Assembly: GCF_000719555.1 (NCBI RefSeq)
Contig: NZ_JOGX01000029.1
Span: forward strand, 1-64,000
From: Streptomyces sp. NRRL F-5727
Lineage (GTDB): Bacteria > Actinomycetota > Actinomycetes > Streptomycetales > Streptomycetaceae
Reading direction: 5' to 3'
DNA length: 64,000 bases
Shown here: positions 1 through 28,568 of the stretch, piece by piece
Layout: each line of letters opens with the position of its first letter
How positions within the stretch are numbered: the first letter of the stretch is position 1
Notes under the pieces: generated by a model
Told to the model about the DNA's origin: nothing
Database searches by the model: none
Seen by the model: only the letters and a program-made list of their open reading frames with translations
Position numbers and translations under genes: made by a program

Positions 1-123
1 GAGAGAGCCGGTCCTGCCCGGGTAGAGTCAGAGCTTGCCGGTCGCGGCTTCGCGGGCGTAGAGGTCGGGACGCCCGTCGCTGTTCATGTCTCCGACGCCC
101 CTCTGTGCCGCACCTGTTCGCTG
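1..123 (-). pseudogene. 3' fragment of an FG-GAP/VCBS secreted protein with an in-frame stop
   Basis: The minus strand encodes a typical VCBS/FG-GAP calcium loop (GDMNSDGRPDLYAR) followed by TGKL, then a TGA at 28-30 and LYPGRTGSL in the same frame. In this family the sequence normally reads KLWLYPG, so TGA sits exactly where a Trp (TGG) codon is expected and looks like a nonsense mutation. The fragment runs off the left edge of the window and its upstream end is not defined. It resembles the repeats of the propeller genes at 15195, 26304 and 28688. Confidence 0.55.
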
Positions 124-158
124 ACGTTGCCGTCAACTACTGCCGTCAGACGCTCCAG

Positions 159-190
159 AGGCCCCACCGGAAATAGATCCGGTGGGGCCT
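159..190. terminator. Hairpin terminator after the toxin-immunity operon
   Basis: A perfect 13-bp inverted repeat (159-171 with 178-190) with a 6-nt loop lies 28 bp beyond the stop codon of the minus-strand gene at 218-619. On the plus strand it is followed by TTT. Position and shape fit a terminator for the four-gene operon to its right, possibly acting in both directions. Confidence 0.7.
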
Positions 191-217: not shown

Positions 218-619
218 TCAGTCACCATCAAGCATCTTTTCGACTGCCGCCTTGATTGCTTCCAACGCCCCATCATCCACTGTGAGTGGCGCTGCGAGCG
301 TTTCGACCCAGTGCCGTATTTCGGCCTCGGTTAGGTCTCGCCAACGCGGATGCATAGCAGCTCTGTGTGCAATGATCCGCCAGCGATGCTGGTGCTGCGA
401 GAGTCGATACCAGTCAGCCTGTTTCTGCGCTCGTCCTGGCGTTGAGCTCGAACGCAATCCCGAGATCAGACTTTCGCGAAGACGATTCAGCGCCGACGCA
501 TAGACCGGACTCCCGTTGAGCACGTCCGTGTCATCGGAGAGCTCAAATTTGAGCTCCATACCGGCACGGAGCAGCATCTCCACCTGGGCAAAGTTGTCGA
601 ACTCGACCAGCTCTGACAT
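218..619 (-). CDS. Probable immunity protein of the RHS toxin (133 aa, unknown family)
   Basis: This 133-residue cytosolic-looking protein has no signal peptide and is rich in charged and aromatic residues (QADWYRLSQHQHRWRI, HPRWRDLTEAEIRHW). It is the last gene of the operon. Its ATG overlaps the stop of the RHS toxin gene by one base (TGATG), so it is probably translationally coupled. A small gene directly downstream of a polymorphic toxin's variable C-terminus is normally its immunity gene; that function is inferred from position only. I do not recognise the family. The hairpin at 159-190 closes the operon. Confidence 0.7.
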   Translation of the reverse strand: MSELVEFDNFAQVEMLLRAGMELKFELSDDTDVLNGSPVYASALNRLRESLISGLRSSSTPGRAQKQADWYRLSQHQHRWRIIAHRAAMHPRWRDLTEAEIRHWVETLAAPLTVDDGALEAIKAAVEKMLDGD

Positions 620-3600
620 CAGAAGGGGTTCCTTCCGTGGAAGAGAACGTTCCCCGCCGGGATCTTCAACGAGCCTCTCGTAATCAGCTCATTTGGCTGA
701 GATCCCGGCCCAAGCTCGACACCTTCAGGCATTCGGAAGGCGAACATGTAGTCAGCCTTTCCTGCATACATCGGGTTACCAATGAATATGTTCTGCTCGA
801 TCTCTGCCGGGCTTCCAATTTCCTGGGTCACATGGACCTTTCCGGCGGAGTTGGCGCCAATCCTGAGACTGCCATCATCGGCCAAAATCCCACTGTGTCC
901 TCCCTCGCTCGTGTAATGGAAGTAGACATTGTCATCGAGATTATCGACAACGTTCCCGACGTCATGAGTCGCCGCATTATTGCAGTTGTGAACGAGTACC
1001 GGCGTGGCCCCCGCCAGCACATAGTACGTGTGGACGTCGGTCAGGGTGAGGTCATGCGTACGCTGGCGCTTATCGTAGCGGGCGACCCCTGTGACCTTGG
1101 CGGTTCCTCCCTTGGAGGTTCGCAGGGTCATGCCTGGCTTGAGGTCGCCGGCTTCGATCCAGGCGTTGGCGGAGACAACCCAGAAGGGGTGGGTGGTCGT
1201 GGAGGTCAGTTGTTCTTCTGTCCCGGTGTCGCGTGTGGCGATCTTCAGGTCGACGAAGTGCTTGTCGTCCTCGGTGATGATGGTTCCGGCTACGACACGG
1301 ACGGAAGTTTCGTTTGCTTCGGGGTCAGTGACGGTGAGCCTGTCTCCGGGTTTCACTTCCTCGATGGGTTTGGTAGTGCCGTCTTCAGTGAGGACGCTTG
1401 TTCCCGGCAGGAAGCTATGGTTACTCTCGGTGAGACATCCATCCTTTCCGCTTCCAGACTTCGTTTTGGCTACGCGGGCCTTGGCTGCCTCAAGAGCCTT
1501 TTCCGCCTTCGTGACGGCCTTCGAAGCAGCCATCCATTCGAAGGCGCCTTCGATGATTTCATCGACGAGGCCGGTGATTCGCATCGCCAGTTCGGCGCCC
1601 TTTTCCCAGTTCCAGGGCATGCCGTACTTGGCGAGGACCTTTCCGGCGATTCCTCCGGCGAAGCTGCCGGCAATGTTGAGAACGGATTCGCCGCACGACG
1701 CAAGGTTGCCGGTGGTGAGGCAGTCCAGGGCGGCTGGGATCCCTAGCTCGTCCGCGACAATTGTCGCTACCTCTTCTGCGGCCTTCTGAATCTTCTGTGT
1801 GGCCCGGTCGTACTGCCCCTCGGCTGCTTCCTTGCTCTCTTCAGCCTCCTCGACCGCCGGATCCTTTTCTTCTTCGGCAGGAATCAGCCCTTGTGTCGCC
1901 GCATCGATGACGTCGGCAGCCGCTCTCTTAACTCCTGAGACAAGTGTGGAAAGAATGTCCCAGAGTCCGGATGGGTCACTGCGTGTGACAGGGCTGTTGC
2001 TCGCGTATGCGTAGCCGTTGATCTGCTGGGGTCGGGTGTGGTCGATGAGGGGGTCGACGGAGATGAATTTGCCCAGTTGTGGGTCGTATTCGCGTGCGCC
2101 GAGGTGGGTGAGGCCGGTGGAGGCGTCCGCGGTTCCGCCGACGAATCCCTTGTCGCCGATCCAGGGGCCGCTGGGGGTGCCGCGGTTGAGGCCGTAGGGG
2201 TCGAAGCGGCGCTGGGTGACGGCTCCTGTGGTGGAGTCGATGGCGACGTCGCTGGTGCCGTGGTGGTCGGAGGCCAGGAAGGAGAGTTTGCCGTCGGAGG
2301 TGCGGACGGCGATGGTCTGGCCGGCGTGGGTGTAGTAGCGGGTGCCCTTGACGGTGGAGCTGCCGTTGGTTACGGAGAGTTCCATGCCGGGCAGGTACAC
2401 GGTGGTGGTGGAGGGGTCCTTGCGGACGATCCGGTTGCCTTCGGCGTCGTAGAGGAACGTGGTCTGGCCGGCGACGCTGGTGACGCTGGTGGGCTTGCCT
2501 GTGGCATCCCAGGTGATGTTCTGGGTGTCGCCGGCGATGACGCGTTTGGTGGTGTTGCCGGAGGCGTCGTATTCGTAGGTGGACTGGCGGTCGCCGGTCG
2601 GAGTCTTCTCCAGGACGCGGGTCACCTGGTGAGGGTCAGTGCCCTGGATGCCCGTGCCGTAGGTGTAGGTGCGGGTGATGTCCTTCGTCTCATCCAGGGA
2701 GATGTCGTGGATGGTCTCGGACGTGCGGTTCCCGATGGAGTCGACCCGGTATTCCTTCCAGTAGGGGGCCGGGCCGCCCAGGGGTGTGGTGCCGGGTGCC
2801 GCTTCACATGCCTTGGGCATGGAGCCGGTCACGGTCACGCGTGTGCCTACGGTGCCGCTGCCTGTGGCGTCGGCGTCGGTTGCAGCGGCCGGGGTCCATG
2901 CGTGGGTGAGGCTCTGCCGACCGTCGTAGCGGAAGCACTGGACGTCGTTCGACACCGGTCCGGAGACGTCCGAGATGGAGAGGACGTTGCCGGCCTGGTC
3001 GTAGGAGTAGTTGGACTGCTTGGCCGTGGATGAGGCGAGGTAGACGTCGGTGGACGCCTGCGTGAGGCGGTCGGTGCCCTTCTCGTACTGGTAGGTGTTC
3101 CAGACCTTCTTACCGCTGCCGTCGTGGAGTTCCAGCTGCTGCACGTGGCTTCTGCTGGAGTAGATGGTGTTGGTGACGTAGCTGGTCGCGCCGGTCAGGG
3201 TGGTGGGCCGCTGGAGCGTGTCGTAGGAGGTGACGAGAGGCTCGGCGGGAAGGCCGCCTGCGGCGGGAAGGGAGGTGCCCTGCAGCGTTCCGTCGGTGTT
3301 GTAGGTGTTGTCGTAGACGTAGAGGCCGGCCAGTGCGCCCTGGGAGGCGGGGATGGTGTATCCGGTCCTCAGAGGGCGGTAGAGGGAGTCGACGACCTGG
3401 ATGGTGGTGGCGAAGTACTCGGTCGGTGAGGTGTATCGCCGCGTCGAGTAGGCCATGCCGAGTCGGCCGGAGGTGTCGTAGAGGGTTTCGGTGAGTTTGG
3501 TTCCAGTGGTGGGGTCTCCTTCCCAGGTGAGGGTGGGGCGGGAGAGCTTGTCGTACTGGGTGGAGACCTTCTTGTTACGGGCGTCGTAGCTGGCAACCGG

Positions 3601-6600
3601 GCGGTCGAGTTCGTCGTACTCGGTGCGTGAGGTTCCGGCGTCGGGGTCGACGGCCTTAGTCTTGCGGCCGAGCTGGTCGTACTCGTAGCGCCAGACGTTG
3701 CCCTGGGCGTCGGTGACGGTTTCGAGCTGGCCGTTGCGGGTGTAGGTGTACTTCGTCTCGTCCGGGGTGCCGAGAGCGGGGTCGGGCCGGTCGCCCTGGT
3801 AGTGGAGCAGGCTGGTGGTGCGTCCCTCGGCGTTTGTCACCGTCGTGGTCGCCCTGCCGCCGGTCGGCGGGTCGACCGTGGTCTTCTCACCGTCGTAGGT
3901 GGTGGTGGTGCGCCACTGTTCGTCGCCGGAGATGTCGAAGATCTCGGCGGTGATCCGGCCGAGTCCGTCGTACTCGAAGCGGTTCTGGGCTCCGACGGCT
4001 CCGTTGGCTCCGGTGGTCAGTTCGTGGAGTTCACCGGAGGGCGCGCCGGCTGCGCTGTAGGTGGCGTTGGTCTTCTTGACCTTGCCGGTGCCGTTGTACC
4101 AGGTGTCGGCGACGAGTCGGGTGCCGTCGACCCCCTGGGTCTGGATCTGACGTCCGCGCAGGAGGCTGTCGTAGAGCTCGTACTCAGAGCCGTAGGTGCC
4201 GTCGTTCTTGAGCTTTTCGGTGCGGATCCAGGTGGGTTTGTCCTTTCGCTGGTTGTAGGTGTACTTGATGCTCGGTGACGACGGGGCCTGGATCTTCAAC
4301 CGGTCGGGCAGCCAGACCGAAGTGATACGGCCGAGGGCGTCACGGGCCAGGTCGGTGCGCTTGCTGTTGGGGTCGGTCTGTCCGGTGGGCTGTCCCCACG
4401 CGGGGGCGTAGTCGGTGGTGGTGATGTGGCCGAGGGCGTTGGTGACTGTGGCTTGGGTTGCGAGGCCGTTGACCTGGGTGTAGGCGGTCTTGGTCTCGTT
4501 GAGTTTGGCGTCCTTCTGCCACAGGATGCGCCCGTAGGCGTCGTAGCCGCTGGTGCCGGTGGTCTGGTAGGTGGCGGTGGTTCCGTCGTGGGCGGTCAGT
4601 CGCTGGGTCTGGGTGACGTCGCCCTTGGTGGGTGCGGCGTCGAAGACGCCTGCGTCGTAGAAGGTGCGCTCGTCGGTGAGGACCTGGGTCTTGCGATCGG
4701 GGGTGGTGGCGCAGTTGACGGTGACGACCTCGCTGCGGCTGGGCAGGGAGAGGATGTTCTCGTCAAGGTTGTCTGCGTACCAGAGCCGGGTGCAGGTGTC
4801 GTCCGCGGTGGTGGAAACGTCACCGAGGCCGTCGATCTGGGTGGTGCGGCCTGTTCGTGTTGCGGTGTCGAAGGTGGGGACGGTTTTCGTCTCGCGCCAG
4901 GTGTCGTTCGACAGGAGTGAGAAGGCGCGTGTGGTGCGGGGTTTGACGATCGCGGCGTAGGTCTTGCCCCAGGTGGGTGAGAAGGTCGCCGTGACGTGCT
5001 TCCACGGCTCGCTGATCGTGTGGGAGACGAGCTTGGAACCGTCGTAGGTGAATGACTCTAGTTCGTGGCCGGCGAATTCCTCGGCGTCGGTGTACGTGGT
5101 GTTCTTGGAGTCGCTGACTTCGATGCTGCGTGTTCCGCCGGTGGAGTCGGTGTCGCCATCCATTCCCTGCAGGTAGTGGTAGTCGACGCGGGTGGTCTGT
5201 CGGTCGGCGGTGCCGCTGGTGACGGTGACCTTGTCGTAGCCCTGCCAGTTGCTCCAGGTCAGGAACTTGGTGTCGGTTATGCCGTCCGGCTTGCTCTTGC
5301 GCCAGGCGCCTTTGCCGTTGTCGTAGTTGTAGCGGGTGACCAGGCTGTCGCTGCCGCCGGTGCGGTCGGTCTGGATGATCTCGGCGACGACGTACTTGTG
5401 GAACCAGTCGGTCTCCGGTTCGATCTTGCCGGGCGGTGCCCACACGACGGGATAGCAGCGCTTGGTTGAGGCGCCGGGGGTGGGCAGAGCGCTCGCGTCG
5501 CACTCAGGGGCGGCGTAGTTGACGTCGAGCTGTGCTCCGGTGTCGCTCAGGACCATGGCGAGGCGGGGACGATAGAAGGCCGCAGTGTTGTCGCCGACCG
5601 CGTCTACCCGGTTGCGGAACTGTTCGCTGAAGAGCTCGACCTCGGGGAGCTGGACGGCTGTGCCTGCCCTGCCCTCGTGCTGGATCTTGGACAGCCACAG
5701 GGCTTTCGAGGTGTCGCCGTTGTCGGTGAAGGTGTGGGTCAGGTTCCAGCGGTCCACGTCCTGGTAGGTCGTGGCGTCCTTGAGCATCTGAGTGTTGATG
5801 GTGCCGACACGCTTGCTGGTCCAGAACGTCTGGCCAACGGTGCAGGGGGTGTTGGCCTTGCACTCCTGGTCCACTGGCGTGTCGGGCCAGTAGGCGGCGT
5901 TGGCCGTGGAGCGCTTGGATTCGTGGCAGTCGAACTGGGTGTCCGGAAGGCAGCGCTCGGGGAGGATGAAGGTGACGCGTGCGGGGGCTTTGCCGGCGTA
6001 GACCTGGCCGTCGCGCTGACCGTAGTCGATGCGCTTGAGGAAGCCGCCGCGGTGGTAGGCGGTGCCGTTGACGTCCGTTTTGCCGTTGAGGGCGTAGTAG
6101 TTCGTCTCTGGCTGGTAGAAGTAGGACATCACGTTGCCGTGGGTGTCCTTGACGTAGTCGAGGCTCCAGCGCCATGCCTGGTTGCAGTGGGCGTTGGCGA
6201 AGGTGGTGTTGTAGCAGGGTTCGCCGGAGTCGTCGCCGAAGACGGGGGCGGTCCAGACCGACCTGGTCTCTTCGTTGCCTGTCTGCCAGCCGGGCAGGTG
6301 GTTCAGGCCGAAGTAGTACTCCGTGCCATTAGACGTGATGATGCGCCAGTATTCGTTGTTATCGTCGGCGTTCTCGGTGTTGACAAGCTTGTCGACCGTG
6401 GCGCCGCTGTCATTGGACAGGTGCCACTTCTTGGTGGTGGTGTCCTTGACGAGCTGGCTGGACTGGCCCTCCAGCATGACGGTGGCGTTGTCGTAGGCCC
6501 AGCACTGCTCTCCAGAGCCGGTGTGGCCGTCCTGGGCGCAGGGCTTGTAGCGGCGTTCGATGTATCCGGGCTCGTAGCTGAAGCCCTCACCGATCCAGGA

Positions 6601-7572
6601 GCCCTGGTTGTTGGTTGCGGAGGTGCGGCCGTCGGCCGACTGCGAGGTGTAGCTCAGTCCCAGGCTCGGGGTCAGGCCGCCCGGGGTGGGCACCGTGCGC
6701 AGGGGGTAGTTCCATGAGAACCCGCCGGAGGAGGCCGACACGGTCCAGCTGGCCGAGGGTGCGAGCGGGGTGGCCTTGTAGTCGCCCTGGGCGGACGACG
6801 GGCCGGCCGCCACCGCGATCAGGGAGACATCACCGGTATTCATCGTGGACATGCCGGAGGAGTCCGGGGCCACGGTGACATCGGCCGACAGGACGTTGGT
6901 GGTGGTGTCGTTGCGGGTGGGCAGGATCTTGGGCTGTTCAGGGCACTTCTCACTGCCGGGTGTCGCGACGGCGGCGCAGGCAGGAAGTTGTATGAGGTTG
7001 AGGCGGGAGCCGTAGGAGCCGCCAAAGCCTTCGCTGAAGGTGGAGTAGTCGACGTTGAGGCGGACCTTGGCGGGTTTGGCGCCGCCGTCGGACCGTTCCA
7101 CTCCGAACACGGCTGCAGCACCCAGGGCTGCGGCTCGCTTGGGGTCGAGAACGTCGACCCCGATCTTTTCGGGAATCTCGTGCGGCACGGTGAGGCGGGA
7201 AGCACCGATCGCTGCCGAGTGCTGAGGTGCTTGTGCAGAGATCGGCAGGGCGCCAGCCTTGGCCGCGGACTGCTTCTCGCCGGCGGCGGCGACGTTCACT
7301 TCCGCGTGTGCCTGGGTCGGCCAGGTCGCGGGGTCGAGTTTGGTGACCGTCGGCGTGCGGCCGGGTGGGTTGGGTCGCTTGCTTGCCGGGGCGTCCTTGC
7401 CGACCACGGGGTCGCCCATATCCTGGACGTCAGGGCGCTTGGTGCGCTGATCTGCTGCAAAGGACACTTGCTGGATCGAGGTGGCGGACAGCAGCAGAAC
7501 AAGACTCACTGCTGTGCCGCGCAGAGCGCTTCTTGGTATTCGGCGGTTCAACAAACGGCCTTGGAAACGCAT
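619..7572 (-). CDS. RHS-repeat polymorphic toxin with HINT domain and C-terminal HYD1-type ADP-ribosyltransferase
   Basis: This 2317-residue secreted protein starts at ATG 7572 (MRFQGRLLNRR) behind a GTGGAG-type ribosome site and has a Sec-type signal peptide over roughly residues 1-40. Dozens of RHS/YD repeats fill the middle. The RHS core ends near residue 1835 with the LGKFISVDP signature. A HINT autoprocessing domain spans about 2053-2196: it starts SFLPGTSVL, contains the TTTH block and ends HN followed by Cys2197. The first HINT residue is Ser rather than Cys. The last 121 residues contain YFHYTSE and a GILADDGSL turn typical of HYD1-type ADP-ribosyltransferase toxins (Tox-ART-HYD1); this toxin call is from pattern only. 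It is the third gene of an operon with the FG-GAP and LamG genes upstream and the probable immunity gene overlapping its stop. Confidence 0.85.
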   Translation of the reverse strand: MRFQGRLLNRRIPRSALRGTAVSLVLLLSATSIQQVSFAADQRTKRPDVQDMGDPVVGKDAPASKRPNPPGRTPTVTKLDPATWPTQAHAEVNVAAAGEKQSAAKAGALPISAQAPQHSAAIGASRLTVPHEIPEKIGVDVLDPKRAAALGAAAVFGVERSDGGAKPAKVRLNVDYSTFSEGFGGSYGSRLNLIQLPACAAVATPGSEKCPEQPKILPTRNDTTTNVLSADVTVAPDSSGMSTMNTGDVSLIAVAAGPSSAQGDYKATPLAPSASWTVSASSGGFSWNYPLRTVPTPGGLTPSLGLSYTSQSADGRTSATNNQGSWIGEGFSYEPGYIERRYKPCAQDGHTGSGEQCWAYDNATVMLEGQSSQLVKDTTTKKWHLSNDSGATVDKLVNTENADDNNEYWRIITSNGTEYYFGLNHLPGWQTGNEETRSVWTAPVFGDDSGEPCYNTTFANAHCNQAWRWSLDYVKDTHGNVMSYFYQPETNYYALNGKTDVNGTAYHRGGFLKRIDYGQRDGQVYAGKAPARVTFILPERCLPDTQFDCHESKRSTANAAYWPDTPVDQECKANTPCTVGQTFWTSKRVGTINTQMLKDATTYQDVDRWNLTHTFTDNGDTSKALWLSKIQHEGRAGTAVQLPEVELFSEQFRNRVDAVGDNTAAFYRPRLAMVLSDTGAQLDVNYAAPECDASALPTPGASTKRCYPVVWAPPGKIEPETDWFHKYVVAEIIQTDRTGGSDSLVTRYNYDNGKGAWRKSKPDGITDTKFLTWSNWQGYDKVTVTSGTADRQTTRVDYHYLQGMDGDTDSTGGTRSIEVSDSKNTTYTDAEEFAGHELESFTYDGSKLVSHTISEPWKHVTATFSPTWGKTYAAIVKPRTTRAFSLLSNDTWRETKTVPTFDTATRTGRTTQIDGLGDVSTTADDTCTRLWYADNLDENILSLPSRSEVVTVNCATTPDRKTQVLTDERTFYDAGVFDAAPTKGDVTQTQRLTAHDGTTATYQTTGTSGYDAYGRILWQKDAKLNETKTAYTQVNGLATQATVTNALGHITTTDYAPAWGQPTGQTDPNSKRTDLARDALGRITSVWLPDRLKIQAPSSPSIKYTYNQRKDKPTWIRTEKLKNDGTYGSEYELYDSLLRGRQIQTQGVDGTRLVADTWYNGTGKVKKTNATYSAAGAPSGELHELTTGANGAVGAQNRFEYDGLGRITAEIFDISGDEQWRTTTTYDGEKTTVDPPTGGRATTTVTNAEGRTTSLLHYQGDRPDPALGTPDETKYTYTRNGQLETVTDAQGNVWRYEYDQLGRKTKAVDPDAGTSRTEYDELDRPVASYDARNKKVSTQYDKLSRPTLTWEGDPTTGTKLTETLYDTSGRLGMAYSTRRYTSPTEYFATTIQVVDSLYRPLRTGYTIPASQGALAGLYVYDNTYNTDGTLQGTSLPAAGGLPAEPLVTSYDTLQRPTTLTGATSYVTNTIYSSRSHVQQLELHDGSGKKVWNTYQYEKGTDRLTQASTDVYLASSTAKQSNYSYDQAGNVLSISDVSGPVSNDVQCFRYDGRQSLTHAWTPAAATDADATGSGTVGTRVTVTGSMPKACEAAPGTTPLGGPAPYWKEYRVDSIGNRTSETIHDISLDETKDITRTYTYGTGIQGTDPHQVTRVLEKTPTGDRQSTYEYDASGNTTKRVIAGDTQNITWDATGKPTSVTSVAGQTTFLYDAEGNRIVRKDPSTTTVYLPGMELSVTNGSSTVKGTRYYTHAGQTIAVRTSDGKLSFLASDHHGTSDVAIDSTTGAVTQRRFDPYGLNRGTPSGPWIGDKGFVGGTADASTGLTHLGAREYDPQLGKFISVDPLIDHTRPQQINGYAYASNSPVTRSDPSGLWDILSTLVSGVKRAAADVIDAATQGLIPAEEEKDPAVEEAEESKEAAEGQYDRATQKIQKAAEEVATIVADELGIPAALDCLTTGNLASCGESVLNIAGSFAGGIAGKVLAKYGMPWNWEKGAELAMRITGLVDEIIEGAFEWMAASKAVTKAEKALEAAKARVAKTKSGSGKDGCLTESNHSFLPGTSVLTEDGTTKPIEEVKPGDRLTVTDPEANETSVRVVAGTIITEDDKHFVDLKIATRDTGTEEQLTSTTTHPFWVVSANAWIEAGDLKPGMTLRTSKGGTAKVTGVARYDKRQRTHDLTLTDVHTYYVLAGATPVLVHNCNNAATHDVGNVVDNLDDNVYFHYTSEGGHSGILADDGSLRIGANSAGKVHVTQEIGSPAEIEQNIFIGNPMYAGKADYMFAFRMPEGVELGPGSQPNELITRGSLKIPAGNVLFHGRNPF

Positions 7573-7610
7573 CGGTGCTCCACTTCTCGTGGGTATGGGC
7601 GTGAAGGAGG

Positions 7611-7637
7611 GCGGGAGGGGCATGTTGCCCCTCCCGC
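7611..7637. promoter_or_regulatory. GC-rich hairpin in the leader of the RHS toxin gene
   Basis: A perfect 12-bp inverted repeat with a 3-nt loop (arms 7611-7622 and 7626-7637) sits between the LamG gene stop (7683) and the toxin start (7572). No T-run follows. It could lower read-through into the toxin gene or mask upstream starts. It also argues for starting the toxin at 7572 rather than at the in-frame codon at 7623, which lies within the hairpin loop. Confidence 0.5.
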
Positions 7638-7682
7638 ACCGTCACGTGTGGGTCTGGCTGCTGCCTGTACTCCGGCGGGCGA

Positions 7683-10600
7683 CTACCACTCGCCGTGCTC
7701 GCCGAACTCGCCGGTCTGGTTCAACTGCATGACGCCGGTGAGGTCGGCTGCGCCGTTGTAGACCCGGACCTCATCGATGAGGCCGGAGAAGTACTCGGGT
7801 GCGCCCACAAGGGACCTACCGACCTGGAGTCCTCGGGTGGCGGCCCACAGGGTGGTGTCCCTGCGTACGGCCCTGGAGGCGTCGAGCTGGCCATCGACGT
7901 AGAGACGGATCTCGTTGGCTACGGCGTCGTAGACCACGGCGAGATGCTGCCCCAGGCCATCCGTGTCCGGAAGGCGCACGCCATCGGCCAGACTCCTCTC
8001 AGCCGGTGCGACTGCGTCGTCCTTCTCCGCCACCACCACCGTCCAGCGGGCATCGGCGATCCCATCGGGGCCTGGCTTGTACAGGACCTTGATCCGGTTG
8101 GCGTTGTTACCGGGAAGCGACAGCACCGTCTGGGGCGCCGTGCTCAGTGCGGCAAGCCGGACGCGGGCCGTGATGGTGAAGCTCCCCGCGCCGGTGATCG
8201 GTGCGGTCGCGGTCGATGCGTAGGCGCCGGCTCCGTTCAGCTTCAGGTGGCCGGTACCGACGAGGCCCCCGCCCATTTCTGTATTCGGCTGTTCGATCAG
8301 CGCGCCGCCGGCGAGGGTGAGTGGCTGGCCACCCGCGAACTCCGGCGAGGTGATGCTGTCGGGGCTGGTGGTGTTCAGCTGCCAGTAGCCCTTGCGTACG
8401 GGCCTGACCGTCATCAGTTCTGCGACCTGTGCGGCCGGGAGGATGCGGTCGAAAACCCGGACTTCTGCCATGTCCCCGTTGAAGAAGTCACGGTAGCCGC
8501 TCTTGGCGATGGTCCGGCCGATCTGCAGGTCACCGTAGGACTGCCAGACCGAGCGGCGGACGGCAGTCGCCTTGAGGTCCTTGTTGACGTAGAGCCGCAG
8601 CTCCGGGGTGCTGACGGTGGTGGCGTCATAAACGCCGGTCAGCAAGACCCACTGGTCCTTGATCGGTGTGACGCTGGCTGCCGTGGCCTTCCATTCGCCG
8701 AGCGAGTCGACGTCAGAGCCGGCCGAGGAGAAGAACCACTTCTTTGTGGTGGCGTCATAGCCGAGGACGAAACCAGGTTCGCCGGTGCCGTCCTGGCTGA
8801 TGACGGTCATGTTCTTGTCCAACGCGGTGGGACGTACCCATGCGCTGACGGTGAAGCTTCGGGCGGTGTTCAGGACGGTTTCTGCGGTGTCGAGGTAGGC
8901 ACCGGAGGTGCCGTCGAAGTTGGCGGCGAAGTCGATCGGTCCGCCGGGTCCCTCCTTTTGGAATGACACGCCGGGGCCTGGATCAGCGGGGTGCTTCGTG
9001 GTCTCGTCGTGGGCTTCGGTGCTTCCCGCTTTCTCTGCCAGGTTCCACTGGCCGACCACCGGACGGCCGTCGTTGACGAGGAAGTCGTAGCGACTTACAG
9101 CACTGGGATTGCCGGCTCTATCGACCGCCATGACCTCCACCCAGTGTCGGCCGGCGGTAGTGGGAGTCCATTGCACGGTGGCCGATTTGTCTGAAGCGGT
9201 GGTGGCGATAGTGCTGGTGGGAGTTGCGTCGCTGTCGAAGGCGTAGCGGTAGCTGACGACATCGCTGTAGGTCCCGACGCTGGTCCATCGGCCGGGGCCG
9301 AAGCGGAAGGTGCCCGTATTGCCGACGCCGTCCCACCAGATCGAGTGCTTCGGGCTGAGCTCGGGGTACTCAGGTGATGAGACTTTCGGCGCAGGCGGAT
9401 GGGTGGAGTCGTAGATGAATTCACATCGCTCTGTCCCCTCGCCGTCTGTGCTCCACGGTCCCCAGCCGTCCCCGTCCCATGCCTTGACGTTCCATGAGAC
9501 GACGGTGTTCTCGGGAACGGAGGACTTCACGGTGTGCTCGAAGGGTGTTTCGCTGGTGGGGGCAGCGTACGGGGTGTCGTACTCGTAGTACGTCTCGGTG
9601 GTGGATCCGGCGGGCTTCCAGTGGACTCGGAACCGCACCTTCACCTTGTCGGTGCGTGCGCTGGTGTGATCCGGGTCTGTGGCATAAACACGCAGCTTCG
9701 GGCGCTCTTCGAGGTAGGGGCGTGCGGCTCCCCACTTGCATGCGCCGCCCGGGTTGGACGACATCTTGCTGATCGGTATCTGCCTGGGCAGGGTGTTGTA
9801 GTTGACGGACAGGAAGGCGTTGCCGCAGATGCGCTTCCATTCTTGAAAGCGGGTCTCGTCGGCGGCCTTGAGGCCGAAGGTGATCTGGTCCCAGTCCTGG
9901 TCGGCAGCGGTCCTGATCTCGGTGGTCAGTTCGCCGCTGGCGCCTCCTTCGAAGTGGAGGTTGGCCGAAGTGGCTGCGCTTGAGCAGCTGGTGGGCGATA
10001 TGGCCTGGTTCACCGTCTGGAGGTGGTCGGACCACTCGTCCTTGGTGCTGTTCCAGTCGTCCGTCGAGGTCAGCATGCGGTTTTTGCCGCCGACGCGGTA
10101 CAGGTGGATCGGTTCCGGGGTGGGCGTGGCGCTGTAGATGTGGGCGACCTCTGCGGAGAAGGTGGCGCCCAGGATCTGCTTGCCCTTGTAGAAGGAGACC
10201 GGCATCGTGAACATGAGGCGGCGGACGCCGACTCCGTTGCAGGAAACGGGGTTGTAGTCGGTGGGGCAGCGGCCGACTCCGGCGTGGCCGGAGTACTGCC
10301 AGTCCTGCTCGTCGGGAAATCCGCTCATCACGCCGGTCCACAGGGAGCGGCTGGTGGTGCGGGGGATGGGGTCGATGACGACGGGGAAGACGGTCTTGTC
10401 TCCGTCGAGCATCTTCTGGTCGGGCGTCAGGGTGAGCTGATCCTGCTCGACGTCGACGGTCAGTTCGGTTTCCTTGCCGCCGCCGAGCGGGCCTTCGAAG
10501 GGTGTCTTCTTCGCGGTTTCGGCTGTGGCGAGCGCCTTGGCGACAGCGGCCTTGCCCTGGGGCTTGGCCTGCTGTTCGACAACGGAGGCGGAGTCCCACA

Positions 10601-11399
10601 TGGACGGGGCGCCAGCTTCGAAGACGGTTCCGCCCGCGCCTGGGTCCTTGGCGACGAGAGCGCCCGAGGGGGTCTTTGCCACCTTGAGCCCGTCGGTCTT
10701 CATGCCGAGTTCGATGCGGTCCAGCCGCGGGTCTGCGGCAGCCTCGCGAGTTTTGACCACCAGCAGGTGGGCGAAGCCGTCGGATTCGGCACGGACCACC
10801 AGGTCGACGCCTCGGATGGCATCGGGGTAGGTGAGGCTGTCGCCCTGGACGTGGGGGGCGGGCAGCCGGCCGTAGGGCCAGGTGAGGGAGAGCTTGCGGC
10901 CAGCACGTTCCATGGTGACGAACGGTTCGCCAGCTTCGCCGTTGGAGAAGGCCAGGCCGATCGTGGCCGCCTCGGGGGTCCATTGTCCGGCCTCGTTGCG
11001 GATCAGTGTGGTGTCCACGTCGACCCATTTGCCGTCCTTGGCCGCGTAGAGCGGTTGGGCGTACTCGCGTGCGGTGAAGGTGCCGTCGGGGTTGGCGAAG
11101 ACCTGTCGGCGTTCGGCCCTTTGGGACGTGATCTCGACTGCTTCGCCGGTCTCCTTCGCCTTCTTCAGCGCCTCGCTGCCGCTCGGTGCGGACGTGGTGG
11201 GCGGGGGGGTCTCGGCTGCGGAGGTCCAGGGCGCTGCGCCTGCGGGGGCCACGCCGATGAGCGCTCCAGCCAGGACGGTGCTCGACAGGGCTGCTGCCAG
11301 CAGCCCGGCGCCCTTGCGTCTTCCTGTCATTACGCGGCTCCGCGGCACTCGGCCTGTTTCCCCGCCGCTTCGGGGGGACGGGTTCGTTGTGGTCTTCAT
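7683..11399 (-). CDS. Secreted twin-LamG (concanavalin A-like) protein
   Basis: The protein has 1238 residues. An N-terminal signal peptide ends near residue 55 (LIGVAPAGAAPW). A long DNRLRE-like middle part carries secreted-protein features, including paired cysteines, and an Ig/fibronectin-like segment with YRYAFDSDA. Two LamG domains follow at about 776-986 and 1004-1226. Each shows the FTVSAWVRP / FTITARVRL strand, a LRLYVNKDL / IRLYVDGQL strand and a final EVRVFDRIL / EVRVYNGAA strand, the usual LamG order. The ATG overlaps the stop of the FG-GAP gene (ATGA, 11396-11399), which fixes the start and implies coupling. The family is a carbohydrate- or protein-binding surface module; the actual ligand is unknown. 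Its place just upstream of the RHS toxin suggests a delivery, display or adhesion partner, which is inference. Confidence 0.85.
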   Translation of the reverse strand: MKTTTNPSPRSGGETGRVPRSRVMTGRRKGAGLLAAALSSTVLAGALIGVAPAGAAPWTSAAETPPPTTSAPSGSEALKKAKETGEAVEITSQRAERRQVFANPDGTFTAREYAQPLYAAKDGKWVDVDTTLIRNEAGQWTPEAATIGLAFSNGEAGEPFVTMERAGRKLSLTWPYGRLPAPHVQGDSLTYPDAIRGVDLVVRAESDGFAHLLVVKTREAAADPRLDRIELGMKTDGLKVAKTPSGALVAKDPGAGGTVFEAGAPSMWDSASVVEQQAKPQGKAAVAKALATAETAKKTPFEGPLGGGKETELTVDVEQDQLTLTPDQKMLDGDKTVFPVVIDPIPRTTSRSLWTGVMSGFPDEQDWQYSGHAGVGRCPTDYNPVSCNGVGVRRLMFTMPVSFYKGKQILGATFSAEVAHIYSATPTPEPIHLYRVGGKNRMLTSTDDWNSTKDEWSDHLQTVNQAISPTSCSSAATSANLHFEGGASGELTTEIRTAADQDWDQITFGLKAADETRFQEWKRICGNAFLSVNYNTLPRQIPISKMSSNPGGACKWGAARPYLEERPKLRVYATDPDHTSARTDKVKVRFRVHWKPAGSTTETYYEYDTPYAAPTSETPFEHTVKSSVPENTVVSWNVKAWDGDGWGPWSTDGEGTERCEFIYDSTHPPAPKVSSPEYPELSPKHSIWWDGVGNTGTFRFGPGRWTSVGTYSDVVSYRYAFDSDATPTSTIATTASDKSATVQWTPTTAGRHWVEVMAVDRAGNPSAVSRYDFLVNDGRPVVGQWNLAEKAGSTEAHDETTKHPADPGPGVSFQKEGPGGPIDFAANFDGTSGAYLDTAETVLNTARSFTVSAWVRPTALDKNMTVISQDGTGEPGFVLGYDATTKKWFFSSAGSDVDSLGEWKATAASVTPIKDQWVLLTGVYDATTVSTPELRLYVNKDLKATAVRRSVWQSYGDLQIGRTIAKSGYRDFFNGDMAEVRVFDRILPAAQVAELMTVRPVRKGYWQLNTTSPDSITSPEFAGGQPLTLAGGALIEQPNTEMGGGLVGTGHLKLNGAGAYASTATAPITGAGSFTITARVRLAALSTAPQTVLSLPGNNANRIKVLYKPGPDGIADARWTVVVAEKDDAVAPAERSLADGVRLPDTDGLGQHLAVVYDAVANEIRLYVDGQLDASRAVRRDTTLWAATRGLQVGRSLVGAPEYFSGLIDEVRVYNGAADLTGVMQLNQTGEFGEHGEW

Positions 11400-13009
11400 C
11401 GGATCTTGGCCCCCAGCGCCTTGCCGTTGGCGGCCAGGCCGTTGGTGCCAGGCAGGAGGCGATCCGCAGGGGCTCCGCCGGCAGGCGTGTTCCAGGTGTA
11501 CTTCTCGATGCCACGGAAGGCGACGGGACCGTAGGCGATTCCGACGTGGAGGTGGCTGGGGACGGCGGCGAGGCTCTGCCCCATGTAGCGGTCTTCCTGG
11601 TCGGCGATCGGGGTGTCAGGTCCGGGTGCGAGCCAGCTGTCCGATGCGCCGGGTGCGCCGACCATGGGAACGATGCTGACGGCGCCTGCGTCGGTAGCTC
11701 CCGAGCCGGAGTCCTCACCAGGAACACCAATAGCGAGGCGGACGGTCGAGCCGGTCGACACCGTGCTCGGCGAGGTGTTGATCGCGGCCAGCTCGTGGCC
11801 GAAGCGGTCACCGGCCTCGTCGGTGCCCGTCACCTCCGGCGTCATCTGGGAGATCCAGTTCAGTTCGGTGAACGTTCCGGCTGCCGTGATCCGGAAGATC
11901 TGCACGGCTCCGGTATCTCTCACGCCGCCGTTGTCCTCACCCGGGATACCGACGGCGAGGAGAGACTCGTTGGTCGAGCTCGCGCCGCTGGGCCGGTAGG
12001 GGGCCATGGCTAGACCGGTGGCGAAGTTGTCACCGGTCTCCTCGTACTCCGAGACGTTGTCCTGGTCCTGGCCCATGCCGAACAGCGGCTTGGGCTGGCC
12101 GTTGACCAGCGTGTGGCTGAAGACCGCGGCAGCGCCGGCGAAGGTGTAGGACCCCAGGGCCTCGCCGGGCATGCCGACGGCGAAATGGTTGGGGGACGCC
12201 GCGACGGACGCGCCGAACTGGTCGTCCTGCTCCGTGCCGCCCGGCACGTCTCCGCCTGCCGTGGTGTCCTGGTTGAAGGCGGCCACCGCCCGGTTGATGC
12301 CGTGGATGTAGGCGGCTCCACCGGCGTCCTGGTCCGTTCCGATGGCTTCGCCGGGGAACCCGGCGACGAGGAAGGGGACGCCCGCTGCCGTCTCGCCGGC
12401 GGCCAAGGCGTAGCCGACGTAGTCGCCGGCCTCGGCTGCGCCGCCGAGGGGGCGGCCTTCGCCCTGCCAGTACTCGGTGACGCCGTCACCGGCTCCGAGG
12501 CCGGCTGTGGAGCCGTGGATGATCTGGATCATGCCCGCGTCCGAGGCGACGCCGGTGAGGTTCCCGGCCGTGTCTCTGATGTCGATGTCCTCATACGGAA
12601 GGCCGACCGCGACATCGCTGCAGCCGTCCTGGTTCTCGTCGTAGACGGCGAGCTCATATCCGAACTGGTCGCCCTGCTCGGCGGCTCCCGGTATGCCAGG
12701 GGAGTCCTGGTTGATGCGCAGGGAGCCTTTGCCGCCGCCGTAGACGACGGTGATCTCGCCCGCGTCTGCCTGACTGCCGACGGGCGCCTCCGGATCGGCG
12801 ACGACGAGGTCTCGGATGCCGTCTCCGTTGAAGTCGCTCTCCACCCCGGACGGACACGCGACGGCAGCAGCAGCGGGGGAAGCCCCCGCACCAAGGCCGG
12901 CGGCCGCGACAAGCAGGGCAATCGCGGGGGCAGCCCAGCGGCGCTGCCCCCGGCCCAGGTTCCGCGATCGCCCAGAGAGAGGTGGCGCCTCTCCGAATCT
13001 CACTCTCAT
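11396..13009 (-). CDS. Secreted integrin-alpha-like FG-GAP repeat protein
   Basis: The protein has 537 residues and is the first gene of the toxin operon. A positively charged N-terminus and a hydrophobic stretch (PAIALLVAAAGLG) ending PAAAA form the signal peptide. From about residue 55 it consists of FG-GAP blades, each with a pattern such as DQFGYELAV, FAVGMPGEA or DFNGDGIRDLVVAD. The last is a canonical Ca2+-binding loop. About seven blades are visible, consistent with a seven-bladed propeller. The ATG at 13009 is preceded by an AGGAAG ribosome site. The stop overlaps the start of the LamG gene. Ligand and role are unknown; it is probably an extracellular binding protein acting with its operon partners. 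Confidence 0.85.
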   Translation of the reverse strand: MRVRFGEAPPLSGRSRNLGRGQRRWAAPAIALLVAAAGLGAGASPAAAAVACPSGVESDFNGDGIRDLVVADPEAPVGSQADAGEITVVYGGGKGSLRINQDSPGIPGAAEQGDQFGYELAVYDENQDGCSDVAVGLPYEDIDIRDTAGNLTGVASDAGMIQIIHGSTAGLGAGDGVTEYWQGEGRPLGGAAEAGDYVGYALAAGETAAGVPFLVAGFPGEAIGTDQDAGGAAYIHGINRAVAAFNQDTTAGGDVPGGTEQDDQFGASVAASPNHFAVGMPGEALGSYTFAGAAAVFSHTLVNGQPKPLFGMGQDQDNVSEYEETGDNFATGLAMAPYRPSGASSTNESLLAVGIPGEDNGGVRDTGAVQIFRITAAGTFTELNWISQMTPEVTGTDEAGDRFGHELAAINTSPSTVSTGSTVRLAIGVPGEDSGSGATDAGAVSIVPMVGAPGASDSWLAPGPDTPIADQEDRYMGQSLAAVPSHLHVGIAYGPVAFRGIEKYTWNTPAGGAPADRLLPGTNGLAANGKALGAKIR

Positions 13010-13894
13010 ACTCTTCCTAGCTGTGTGTCATTGCGGATACGGGCGCGGGGGCGCCCGGAAGGATGCCTGGCGGACAGAGGCCATCCGTAGAAGGGCAGTT
13101 CTCGGCAAGGCGGCTGGATGCAGCACGAAATGCCCGCACAAGGCGGACATAGAGAGGGAAAGGCGCGGGGTGGACAAGGCAGCCTTGTGGACGCACGGAA
13201 CGCAACGGCCGCTGTCGGCGTCTCTTACAGTGAGACGGTCTTCAGGAAAGCCAGATGCGACGGGACGCCTGCAGGGAACCCTGGTCGAACCAACCGTCCC
13301 GGAAGCAGGAAAAGAGCCGATACCCTGCATGCCCGAGAGGGACGCCCCAGTCCTCTACTCGCCAATCCTCAGTCGTCGCCGCGCTACTCCCCCGGCAGGA
13401 AAGCTGCAACAAACCCGACTCTTTATCACGAAGCCCCCCAGCCCCGGCATCCGTCTAGCCCCCAACATTCATCAAACATTCATGAACGCTCACATCAAAC
13501 ACGCTTGCTGATCACATGACAAGCGAAGGGGAGCGAGGTATTCCACTTATTGGACGAGAGGGATAAACCGCCCATAATGCACCTAAAATTCCGAATCGTG
13601 ATGTTCTTCTCAATTAGATCAATACATCGATAGAAGGCATTCCCGTCCGTGCTGTGCAACCGGCAGCCCCACCAGAAAGCACCACTCATAAGGCGTCAGA
13701 CCCGGCCCAACCCACCCTGCCTGCTGCAAGGCCGCCACCTATCAGTGCGCGGATGCGACCGCTTCGGTCGGCGCCCGCACATGAGCAACCCCAAGCCTCC
13801 GCAAGCAGAAGAGGGGCTTGCCGTGAAGAGCGGCGCGGTCTGCCGCGTGAAGAAGGCTGGACACGGAAGGCCTGACTGTCCGGCCCGCGTGTTA
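13010..13894. other. Intergenic region between divergent transcription units, with an AT-rich stretch
   Basis: These 885 bp separate the start of the minus-strand toxin operon from the plus-strand phosphodiesterase gene. No reading frame here has convincing codon usage. The stretch from about 13540 to 13650 is markedly AT-richer than its surroundings (for example AAAATTCCGAATCG and ATTAGATCAATACATCG), which fits a promoter region or a foreign scar. I see no clear -35/-10 pair that I would commit to. Confidence 0.5.
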
Positions 13895-14773
13895 ATGTCC
13901 GCCACCGTGACTCCTGTGAGACTTCGGCGGCGGCGCATCGCAGCCACATCGGCCGCCTTCCTGACCGCTGCATTGACCGCATCCTGCTTGGTGACCGACC
14001 GGGACTCGGCACCCGCTGCCGCTTCCACCCCGGCGGTGCCGGATGTGATCGCCCACCGAGGTGCCTCATCGGTCGCTCCGGAGAACACCCTGATATCCGG
14101 TGAAGTGGCCCGCCGAGCCGGAGTCGACTGGATCGAGAACGATGTCCGGCCCAGCCGGGACGGTGTCCCCTACGTGCTCCACGACGCCACAGTGGACCGG
14201 ACCACCGACGGCACCGGCCACGTGGGGAAGCTGACCTCGGCACAGATCGACGCCCTGGACGCCGGCTCGTGGTTCGCTCCGGCCTATGCCGGGATTAGGA
14301 TCCCCACCCTCGCCGCTCAGCTCGCCGACCTGCGAGAACGAGGCGGACGGCTCTTGCTGGACATCACCGGAACCCGCGGGAAGGCCGACATCGAGCGCAT
14401 CATGCAGACCGTCCAAGAGCAGCAGATGATGGATCGGGTCCTCGTGCAGAGTTTCTTCCCGGAATCGCTCAAGCAGGTCGCTGCCCTGGCACCTCAAGTG
14501 CCCAGGGGCCTGCTGCGGGACAAGCTTGACGCGGACCCCGTGGCAGTGGCCAGGGAGCTTGGAGTAACTGCCTACAACATTTCTGACAAATCTCTGGCGA
14601 CGCGGCCTGAGGTAGTTGCCGAACTGCACGACGCAGGGATATCGGTGAATGTCTGGACCGTGAACGACCCGGCCCGCTGGCAGGCACTCACCGACCTGGG
14701 CGTGGACGGAATCATCACAGACCGGTCGACGGACCTGGTGGGCTGGAACGCCGCCCGTACCGAAACCCGCTAG
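13895..14773 (+). CDS. Glycerophosphodiester phosphodiesterase, probable lipoprotein
   Basis: The protein has 292 residues. The start ATG 13895 is chosen because it gives a proper signal sequence (RLRRRRIAATSAAFLTAAL) ending in a lipobox-like LTASC, so the enzyme is probably anchored outside the membrane. The GDPD signature is clear: AHRGASSVAPENT near residue 55, then the IENDVRPSRDG acidic motif and VLHDATVDRTTDG. The C-terminus has NVWTVNDPARWQAL and GVDGIITDRST, typical of the family's last strands. The reaction is hydrolysis of glycerophosphodiesters to glycerol-3-phosphate and an alcohol. It stands alone, with the toxin operon divergent on its left. Confidence 0.88.
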   Translation: MSATVTPVRLRRRRIAATSAAFLTAALTASCLVTDRDSAPAAASTPAVPDVIAHRGASSVAPENTLISGEVARRAGVDWIENDVRPSRDGVPYVLHDATVDRTTDGTGHVGKLTSAQIDALDAGSWFAPAYAGIRIPTLAAQLADLRERGGRLLLDITGTRGKADIERIMQTVQEQQMMDRVLVQSFFPESLKQVAALAPQVPRGLLRDKLDADPVAVARELGVTAYNISDKSLATRPEVVAELHDAGISVNVWTVNDPARWQALTDLGVDGIITDRSTDLVGWNAARTETR

Positions 14774-26303: not shown

Positions 26304-28568
26304 TCAGGCGAAGAGGTTGAACCAACGGCTGTCCTGGACGAGGTTCACTCCCTCTCCAGGGCGGAACGGCCCCTGCCACGCGCCCGTGCCCCGGTAGAGG
26401 AACGGTGCCGGGATGGCGTCGTTGACGTCGGCCGCGTACAGGTCGGGCCTGCCGTCGCGGTCGGCGTCGCCGGAGCCGATCAGGTCGTCGTAGCGCTGCC
26501 AGCCGCCGCCGATGCGGGTCCGGGCGGCGACGGTGCCGTCGCCCTTGCCGAGGTAGAGCCAGAGGACGCCGGTGCGGTCGCGGGCGACGAGGTCGCCGTG
26601 GGCGGTGCCCGCGAGATTACCGGTCGCGGCGATCCGGTCGTACGTCTGCCAGCCGCCGCTCCCGATCAGGCGGCGGGCGGCGAAGGGCTCGGTCGCGGAG
26701 CCCGTGCTCCGGTACAGCCAGAGGCGGCCGGACCCGTCGGTGGCGACGAGGTCGGGGCGGCCGTCACCGGTGAGGTCGCTCCCGCCCGTCAGGAGGGTGT
26801 ACGTCTGCCAGCCGCCGCCGATCCGGGTGCGAGTGGTGAACGGGGCCTTGCCGTTGCCGGTGCCCTGGTACAGCCAGAGCACCCCGCTCCGGTCGCGGGC
26901 GACGACCTCGGGGGCGGCGGCCCCGGCGATGTTGCCGGTGGCCTCGATCCGGTCGTACGCCTGCCAGCCGCCGCCGACGAGCGAGTCCGGGTTCTGGTAG
27001 GTCTCTCGCCACTCCTCCCGGTAGTGGACGTCCTGGAGCCACAGGTTGCCGGATTCGTCGCGGGCCAGGATGTCCGGGGAGCCGTCGCTGTCGTAGTCGT
27101 GCGCGCCGGTCTTGCGGGTGACCGTGAAGGAGCCGGACGCCTTCAGTGTGGGCCCGACGCGGTTGAGCGGGCTCGCGCTGATCTCCCAGGTGTACGGGCC
27201 GGCCGAGGCGGAGGTCCAGAAGTTGGGGGCTCCCTGCCAGTTGAGCGTGCCGTTCCAGTCGAACCGGGTCGGCTGCGGGTCCACGCCCTGCTCCGGCTGG
27301 GCGACGTACTCCGTGATCGACTCGCCCGTGCGGGTGTGGCGGAGGGTGACCCACATGGTGACGTTGGTCCGGCTGAGCTCCCAGGACATGGGGAGCTTGC
27401 CGCCGGTGAGGTCGAGGTCTACCTTCGTGGGGACGGCCTGGCCGAGCAGCGTGACCTGCGTCGGCTCGCCCGTCGCGGCGATCCGGGTGGCGACCGGGAC
27501 GCCGTCCGTGCCGGGCGCGACCCGGTAGAGGCCCTCGCCGCCGGTGACTGTGCCGCCGACGAAGCCGAGGGTGCCGTCGGCGGTGTCGAAACCGGACACC
27601 GTGTGGTCGAGGAGTTTGCGCGTGGTGGTGCCGGTGAGGCTGCGGGCGGTCAGCGGGATGAGCGTGCTCGCTTCCTCCGCCAGCAGCCCTCCGGGCCGGG
27701 AGTAGGTGACCCAGTCCCCGGCAAGGCCGAGGAGCAGCCTCCCCGATGTGGGCATCGGGAAGCGCTGGACCTTTTGGGTGGAGCGGTCGAGGACGACGAC
27801 GCTCGTACCCGCACCCGACTCGTACTCGGTCCAGGCGACGTGCCCGGAGGAGAGAGCGTAGGCGAATTCCTCCATCGAGCCTTCGGCCGGGACCCGGTGG
27901 GAGGAGGTCACAGTGGCGGAGTCGAGGTCCACGATCGCCAGGTGCTTGGCGACTGCTGTCGTCCCCTCACCGGTGAAGTACTTCACCAGCGCCTCGCCGT
28001 CGGCGCCCGCCACCGCGAACAGATCGGACGCGTCCGCGGGCAGCCCGGTCACCGTTCGGCGCACCGGTCCGTCCGTGCTGGGGGAGTAGACGTCCAGGGG
28101 GCCGTGGCCCGAGAGGTCGGCCCGGACGAAGAGGTGGGAGCCGACGGCTCCCGCGTACCGGTCCCAGTCCAGAGGCAGCGAGAAGAGGTCCGTGCCCGTG
28201 GCCAAGTCCCTCAGGGTGGTGGTGGAACGGTTCTGGAGGACCGCGATGTCCGAGTCGCGGGAGAGGTAGGTGCGGGGCTGGTACGGGACGGTGGTCACCG
28301 CCCCGTCGGCCAGGCGGGTCCAGCGCCGGAGGGCGAAGTCGTCCGCGTCCTGGCTCAGGAACCCGGTCCGGCCCATGCCCAGGACCTTGTCGCCGGGCTT
28401 GAGGACGGGCGCTGTGGCGTCCGTCGGCGCCGCGGGCGCGGTGACGGGCAGGGAGCCGGTCCCGGTGGCGGCGCCGGCCGGGAGGACGGCGGGGCCGGCG
28501 GTGGCCGTCAGGACGACGGCGACGACCGCGCCGAGACGGCGGTGTGCGGTGTATCTGGGGCGAGCCAA
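26304..28568 (-). CDS. Secreted FG-GAP/VCBS repeat protein, paralogue A
   Basis: The protein has 754 residues. It appears to start at TTG 28568, nine bases after GAGAGG. A signal peptide (GAVVAVVLTATAGPAVLPAGAA) leads into an N-terminal propeller-like half with repeated WTRLADG, HVAWTEYE and GDWVTYS strands. A middle Ig-like part (TFNWNG-type FDWNGTLNW) follows. At about 500-740 there are four to five VCBS blades such as YDSDGSPDILARDE, GDLTGDGRPDLVATD-like and DADRDGRPDLYAAD, with VLWLYQGTGNGKAPF strands between. No enzymatic motif is visible. It is about the same size and order as the next gene and clearly a tandem duplicate. Confidence 0.82.
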   Translation of the reverse strand: MARPRYTAHRRLGAVVAVVLTATAGPAVLPAGAATGTGSLPVTAPAAPTDATAPVLKPGDKVLGMGRTGFLSQDADDFALRRWTRLADGAVTTVPYQPRTYLSRDSDIAVLQNRSTTTLRDLATGTDLFSLPLDWDRYAGAVGSHLFVRADLSGHGPLDVYSPSTDGPVRRTVTGLPADASDLFAVAGADGEALVKYFTGEGTTAVAKHLAIVDLDSATVTSSHRVPAEGSMEEFAYALSSGHVAWTEYESGAGTSVVVLDRSTQKVQRFPMPTSGRLLLGLAGDWVTYSRPGGLLAEEASTLIPLTARSLTGTTTRKLLDHTVSGFDTADGTLGFVGGTVTGGEGLYRVAPGTDGVPVATRIAATGEPTQVTLLGQAVPTKVDLDLTGGKLPMSWELSRTNVTMWVTLRHTRTGESITEYVAQPEQGVDPQPTRFDWNGTLNWQGAPNFWTSASAGPYTWEISASPLNRVGPTLKASGSFTVTRKTGAHDYDSDGSPDILARDESGNLWLQDVHYREEWRETYQNPDSLVGGGWQAYDRIEATGNIAGAAAPEVVARDRSGVLWLYQGTGNGKAPFTTRTRIGGGWQTYTLLTGGSDLTGDGRPDLVATDGSGRLWLYRSTGSATEPFAARRLIGSGGWQTYDRIAATGNLAGTAHGDLVARDRTGVLWLYLGKGDGTVAARTRIGGGWQRYDDLIGSGDADRDGRPDLYAADVNDAIPAPFLYRGTGAWQGPFRPGEGVNLVQDSRWFNLFA

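Follow-up and report, generated by a model that had tools for sequence, protein, structure and literature searches.

It is still largely an open question, as far as we know, by what route Gram-positive RHS toxins get to other cells when no type VI or type VII machine delivers them. In the locus analysed here, genes for an FG-GAP protein and a LamG protein precede an RHS gene and a small fourth gene in a 64,000-nucleotide stretch of DNA from Streptomyces sp. NRRL F-5727 (the window). What do the two upstream proteins contribute to the toxin, and against whom is it directed? The operon appears to encode a Sec-exported, multi-protein antibacterial polymorphic toxin together with its immunity protein. 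All four open reading frames listed in a preliminary description of this DNA proved real, in the order given there and on the minus strand:

11396-13009, minus strand: FG-GAP protein gene (P0004), ORF of 537 aa
7683-11399, minus strand: LamG protein gene (P0003), ORF of 1238 aa
619-7623, minus strand: RHS polymorphic toxin gene (P0002), ORF of 2334 aa
218-619, minus strand: small gene (P0001), ORF of 133 aa, very probably encoding the immunity protein for the Tre23-like toxin
about 158-190, minus strand: hairpin 3' of the last gene, from fold computation, a possible terminator without a U-tract

The genes had been described as joined by overlapping starts and stops, which applies to two of the three junctions: ATGA at 11396-11399 between the FG-GAP and LamG genes, and TGATG at 617-621 between the RHS gene and P0001. 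The LamG stop and the RHS ATG, however, are separated by a gap of 59 nt, with a GGAGG-like site ahead of the ATG. The terminator placed at the end of the operon was upheld in part, as a strong hairpin at about 158-190 within a stretch (140-217) that has a folding energy of -39.6 kcal/mol (z -5.4), but this hairpin has no U-tract on the operon strand and is absent from the output of the terminator scan. The layout suggests that the four genes are transcribed as one unit. By inspection, the FG-GAP and LamG proteins each carry a signal peptide with a clear hydrophobic core, as had been claimed, and the RHS leader has a weaker one; all three leaders look Sec-type.

The window begins at the edge of the source contig. 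Behind the operon, positions 1-120 (minus strand) hold the C-terminal end of another FG-GAP-like frame with a DMNSDGRPDLY motif before the stop, and on the other side a GDPD family gene (13649-14773, plus strand; 1e-41) is divergent from the operon. Farther along lie two tandem ORFs of ~750 aa with FG-GAP_3 repeats (26304-28568 and 28688-30946, minus strand; E 3.5e-15 and 3.9e-14) and a gene for an NB-ARC and TPR protein (47359-50187, plus strand), a type of domain set that also occurs in bacterial STAND ATPases.

The RHS protein matched RHS_repeat (4.4e-18) and PT-HINT (2e-16) in Pfam and Rhs_assc_core (4.2e-17) in NCBIfam. Its regions are placed as follows:

6007-6732, minus strand: SpvB-like region, residues 298-539 (Pfam SpvB)
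1963-2202, minus strand: Rhs-associated core, residues 1808-1887 (TIGR03696)
985-1395, minus strand: pretoxin HINT domain, residues 2077-2213 (PF07591, 2e-16)
622-978, minus strand: Tre23-like ADP-ribosyltransferase toxin domain, residues 2216-2334 (PDB 7pq5 chain L)

With the whole protein as query, SpvB scored 18.5 bits against a cut-off of 22, and with the first 750 residues it scored 25.5 bits, above the cut-off; the RHS N-terminal regions of family members matched SpvB in 30 of 30 cases at E <= 0.01. A profile of the RHS N-terminal region had no match among PDB sequences. The PT-HINT match predicts a processing domain ahead of the toxin, and this domain resembles the HINT that PDB 8w20 has in its UmbC chain (E 3.5e-32), the match being significant only over the HINT region. 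The HINT domain opens with Ser, and the 15 relatives that fit the search pattern, as well as the 8w20 chain, have an HSF or NSF start; inteins often start with Cys.

That the RHS protein ends in a toxin had been proposed from its sequence, and a search of PDB sequences identified its C terminus as a homologue of Tre23 (7pq5 chain L; E 1.6e-10, query residues 19-123 of 123). The tail matched no Pfam family even at E 10, PF15633 included. One H, one Y and two E residues are invariant across seven homologous toxin tails, although the window tail still falls below a match to PF15633; these residues may be catalytic in the window tail as well. The available text of two papers places Tre23 in the H-Y-E clade and under PF15633 (PMC9990079) and describes ADP-ribosylation of 23S rRNA by Tre23, which Tri23 counteracts (PMC8636562). 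In a protein search, 12 proteins carried the toxin region, on RHS backbones that include ricin-lectin, LamG-fused and T7SS-named types. In four loci (L122, L124, L127 and L128) the gene for the Tre23-like toxin has extra segments of HINT or RHS-end type close by, as in toxin cassette arrays.

The tail is the variable part of this protein family. Across 27 RHS proteins, with five fused, cut or broken ones left out, mean identity to the window RHS protein was 0.53 for HINT and 0.11 for the tail, and 29 tails (28 relatives and the window) fell into 21 groups at E <= 1e-3. Six of the 28 relatives' tails scored above a curated cut-off (three HNH, one Tox-REase-9, one Tox-ART-HYD1 and one DUF7587), seven matched only below it, some surely by chance, and the other 15, including the Tre23-like tail of L076, matched nothing in the domain scan. 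Compared with the window, L076 is 97% identical in the tail, 87% in the immunity protein and 47% over the RHS protein as a whole; a near-identical toxin and immunity pair on a divergent RHS protein points to cassette exchange. The family combines a conserved backbone with a variable C-terminal toxin, as polymorphic toxin systems do.

Scanning genome contigs with a toxin alignment yielded 12 named loci with a Tre23-like toxin match. In 11 of them the ORF directly after the toxin belongs to the P0001 family, seven of these ORFs being 74-98% and four 22-35% identical to P0001; the twelfth locus (L133) has only a short, weak toxin match. When 698 ORFs were ranked with the P0001-family profile, those of the four distant loci, two of which are from Halomonas and Vreelandella, took the top four places (E 2e-27 to 2e-6). 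P0001 has 47 homologues in the protein search and no match in Pfam or NCBIfam, and none of the four operon proteins matches PADLOC at E <= 0.01; the PDB matches of P0001, at E 0.03 or worse only, were taken as chance. Judged by this genetic association, P0001 is very probably the immunity gene for the Tre23-like toxin. The toxin and immunity assignments are strong, and we are close to certain that the operon encodes a polymorphic toxin with an immunity gene.

The two upstream proteins look like proteins made for attachment to surfaces. The FG-GAP protein matched Pfam FG-GAP (1.8e-9), and the best Foldseek match of its AlphaFold2 model (pLDDT 93.2) was integrin alpha 4wk2_A (E 4.8e-15, TM 0.59). 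P0004 also gave weak matches to integrins among PDB sequences, the fold comparison being the firmer of the two. The model describes it as an integrin-alpha-like beta-propeller, which inspection of its leader suggests is secreted. The LamG protein matched Laminin_G_3 in two stretches (Pfam, E 3.1e-43), and three regions can be told apart:

10365-11174, minus strand: N-terminal region, residues 76-345, which forms a separate family and is also found fused to RHS
8421-8909, minus strand: first LamG domain, residues 831-993
7749-8285, minus strand: second LamG domain, residues ~1039-1217 with approximate borders, the second Laminin_G_3 stretch

The second LamG domain is also backed by the LamG region match of L014 (1039-1217) and by strands in the model, which has a pLDDT of 82.9 and a pTM of 0.54. 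Among PDB sequences P0003 had no match at E <= 0.01. The top Foldseek rows for its model were trypanosome sialidases at TM 0.15, that is, single lectin-like domains, and VIA-align fold matches span model residues 721-1177, short of the N-terminal part. The LamG protein is thus modelled with lectin-like folds, a kind of match that shows no ligand. Conservation per 50-residue block is fairly even along both proteins (0.36-0.55 in the LamG protein, 0.42-0.61 in the FG-GAP protein), and by this measure neither has a hypervariable domain.

Two such genes could simply be bystanders, that is, neighbours with unrelated extracellular roles beside a toxin system made up of the RHS and immunity genes only. 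Their relatives are indeed common in the genus. Searching 246 genus genomes, the window's own included, with the five best first-look candidates scored per genome, gave P0004 matches in at least 191, a lower bound because only these candidates were scored, and the LamG N-terminal region has matches in 174 of 242 genus genomes at E <= 1e-15. In one locus (L087, in G044), a stretch of 18.5 kb, a LamG protein close to P0003 is accompanied by neither an FG-GAP nor an RHS match; that genome has RHS relatives elsewhere. Against this reading stands the order of the genes. The preliminary description had named gene order across Streptomyces as a check to make, and rare co-occurrence of the three genes elsewhere as an outcome that would count against it. 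Judged by eye, full-length P0004 matches are either of a short type (520-662 codons) or of a long type (733 codons and more). The short type occurs in at least 30 relatives besides the window's genome, and in all 29 that were examined as whole loci, FG-GAP comes first, LamG second and RHS third, all on one strand. In the thirtieth (G220), the FG-GAP locus is truncated on its downstream side, and a different contig carries LamG and RHS matches close to each other.

The same order was found at the level of the class. Among 394 sampled genomes, 13 had a P0004 match at E <= 1e-50, and the seven short-type loci examined, from six further genomes, all show FG-GAP, LamG and RHS in this order, three of them in another genus. 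The order therefore recurs in 36 of 36 examined loci with a short-type FG-GAP gene, which is more than chance and the reverse of rare co-occurrence. As a control, LamG or RHS matches were found in none of 11 long-type FG-GAP loci, for which stretches of 8-20 kb, some of them short, were examined. These neighbour counts cover full-length P0004 matches, leaving out genes of similar size that match only its first ~40% or less. An overlapping start is possible in most of the genus relatives: in 22 of the 29, a start codon in frame stands where it would overlap the FG-GAP stop. LamG or RHS frames are split, by decay or sequencing error, in three of the 29 (L051, L054 and L055).

Approached from the LamG side, the arrangement is looser. 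In a sample of 15 loci, taken mostly from the top of the score list and so not random, RHS is the next gene on the same strand in 11 (in L101 in pieces). Three others (L094, L097 and L098) carry a form of the LamG N-terminal part of ~1040-1055 codons without a LamG match, and their RHS gene, found at the margin of the sequence examined, runs in the opposite direction. The fifteenth locus is L087, without RHS. A full-length P0004 match is present in none of the 15, and a partial one lies behind RHS in L090. Since RHS comes next in 11 of these 15 loci and none has a full-length P0004 match, LamG and RHS form the wider core, with FG-GAP as an accessory of one clade. G129 has an array of FG-GAP, FG-GAP, LamG and RHS plus an FG-GAP and RHS unit without LamG (L046 and L047, L046 being the LamG-less unit). 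Two FG-GAP copies before LamG also occur in several other genomes.

Divergence was compared across 29 loci (28 relatives and the window), with RHS cut at 2000 residues; incomplete or broken sets, other-genus loci and the second locus of G539 were excluded. The correlation of pairwise identities is 0.83 for FG-GAP and LamG, 0.75 for FG-GAP and RHS, and 0.92 for LamG and RHS; after controlling for rpoB identity it becomes 0.83, 0.74 and 0.91, each reached by 0 of 1000 permutations. This correlated divergence shows that the genes are inherited as a unit, and linkage alone could give such a correlation. Fusion of LamG-protein-like parts to RHS is stronger evidence of partnership. Two ORFs in the window's own genome are of this kind: one of 2478 residues (L065) joins a stretch like LamG-protein residues 78-822 (26% identity) to RHS, HINT and a GIY-YIG tail, and one of 2973 residues (L066) has LamG domains with RHS and HINT. 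Conserved order, divergence correlated beyond rpoB and these fusions bear out the earlier claim that the first two proteins belong with the toxin, and they make it very improbable that the genes are bystanders. The partnership is well supported: the LamG and FG-GAP proteins are likely to be functional partners of the RHS protein, and the joint statement, a polymorphic toxin with an immunity gene and with these two partners, is likely too.

What the partners do is a matter of more tentative judgement. We prefer the reading, unproven as it is, that they act mainly in target binding, which we regard as plausible though short of probable. Our confidence in it was lowered because a role on the producer's side has been published for laminin-G domains: Zhang et al. 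2012 (PMC3482391, in the text available) proposed N-terminal laminin-G domains of Sec-exported toxins as producer-wall anchors. Applied to this operon, the LamG and FG-GAP proteins would fasten the RHS toxin to the producer's wall and killing would need contact, as for single-chain WapA-type toxins, with toxin and immunity unchanged. Inspection of the operon's proteins revealed no additional anchor of the membrane or sortase type, so the binding domains would be the only anchor. The same paper, however, allows target contact for other lectin domains, and in umbrella particles the propeller and laminin-G type lectins act on the target side (PMC13274773, in the text available). Producer anchoring is doubtful to us, and it comes close behind target binding as a reading of the partners.

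The two proteins might instead be assembly factors that seal the RHS shell, stabilise it or assist its folding, either while it is exported or afterwards, with no role in binding cells. Their even conservation fits this idea, in that a fast-changing receptor-binding part would be expected to contain a hypervariable domain, as does the position of the propeller within the toxin chain in the TcdB/TcaC class (PMC3482391, in the text available). Lectin-like folds, on the other hand, speak against it, as do the closely related LamG and RHS pairs that manage without FG-GAP; we consider this role unlikely.

With target binding as the preferred reading, the system could work in five steps. The Sec pathway would export the RHS, LamG and FG-GAP proteins, whose leaders were seen by inspection. 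By analogy with known RHS structures, the SpvB/RHS part would form a shell that encloses the C-terminal toxin, which the HINT domain would release by cleavage. The LamG protein would be a dedicated RHS partner, acting in trans in place of the fused domains that relatives carry in cis, and together with the propeller it may give the particle its surface-binding specificity, most likely for the cell-wall glycans of competing actinobacteria. Inside the target, the Tre23-like domain would, by homology, ADP-ribosylate 23S rRNA and stop translation, and P0001, by genetic association, would protect the producer. If so, the operon may represent a second class of secreted antibacterial particle in actinobacteria, built on RHS and existing in parallel with the umbrella toxins, with an SpvB/RHS shell, a swappable toxin, and a twin-LamG lectin and an integrin-alpha-like propeller supplied in trans to choose the target; we put this forward tentatively. 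Complex formation and delivery, like the partners' roles, are read here from the genes and from related proteins. The operon is widespread and has lectin and propeller as separate genes, which makes the delivery question raised at the outset testable. No published description of an FG-GAP, LamG and RHS operon was found in the open-licence literature, which is not proof of absence.

How does this operon relate to known systems? A delivery route outside type VI and any known export machine had initially been suggested, and in that form the idea is not supported: the leaders look Sec-type, and SpvB, matched in all 30 RHS N-terminal regions, combined with an integrin-like propeller is the signature of a known class, TcdB/TcaC, which is defined by SpvB with such a propeller (Zhang et al. 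2012, PMC3482391, in the text available). Like this class, the operon combines an integrin-like beta-propeller with a secreted toxin protein that contains SpvB and RHS repeats and ends in a variable toxin; it has a HINT domain too, and HINT processing is among the features listed for the class in the same text. In the operon, however, the propeller is a separate gene (11396-13009) and a LamG protein is added. P0002 has no FG-GAP or propeller match in Pfam, nor do any of 30 RHS N-terminal regions, and a TcA-type pore partner is absent from the four operon genes. Because the propeller is a separate gene, we do not file the system as a TcdB/TcaC member; it may work like a toxin of that type split in trans. 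A Tc-like insecticidal toxin was rejected, since tails of the nuclease, deaminase-like and ART types, accompanied by an immunity gene, suggest that the targets are bacteria.

The toxin domain itself links the operon to Tre23/Tri23 of Photorhabdus laumondii, where a homologous domain ends an RHS protein and the immunity gene is next to it. Tre23, as described in the available text, is a T6SS effector with PAAR and EagR (PMC8636562), whereas here the domain ends a secreted actinobacterial protein with HINT. The locus brings a Tre23-type toxin with its immunity family, known from a T6SS effector, into the setting of secreted actinobacterial proteins. The toxin domain does occur on a protein that is T7SS-type by source name (P0062); a T7SS toxin was rejected for the operon, the RHS protein having no such N-terminal match in Pfam. 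WapA-type toxins are exported, single-chain RHS proteins with a variable toxin tail and immunity. The operon is like them in its exported RHS protein, variable tail and immunity, and differs in that additional domains have genes of their own. The available text of PMC8636562 and PMC9990079 names the WapA type among RHS toxins of Gram-positive bacteria.

Umbrella toxins are nearest in kind, with a different scaffold. They are secreted by Streptomyces, as is predicted for the operon's proteins, and both systems have a HINT-bearing polymorphic toxin protein, with similar HINT regions, 8W20 being a structure deposited with the umbrella-toxin paper; both also have separate proteins with propeller or laminin-G lectin domains (PMC11062931 and PMC13274773, in the text available). 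Compared with what those texts describe, the operon has RHS and SpvB rather than ALF repeats and coiled coils, its partners are fixed in one operon, and it has no UmbB-like small protein. Pfam found RHS, SpvB and HINT in the RHS protein and no ALF repeats, and no trypsin-like domain in P0003 or P0004, on which grounds an umbrella toxin proper was rejected. Should the three proteins assemble into a particle, this task would be served in Streptomyces by no fewer than two scaffolds that are unrelated to each other, each with exchangeable toxins.
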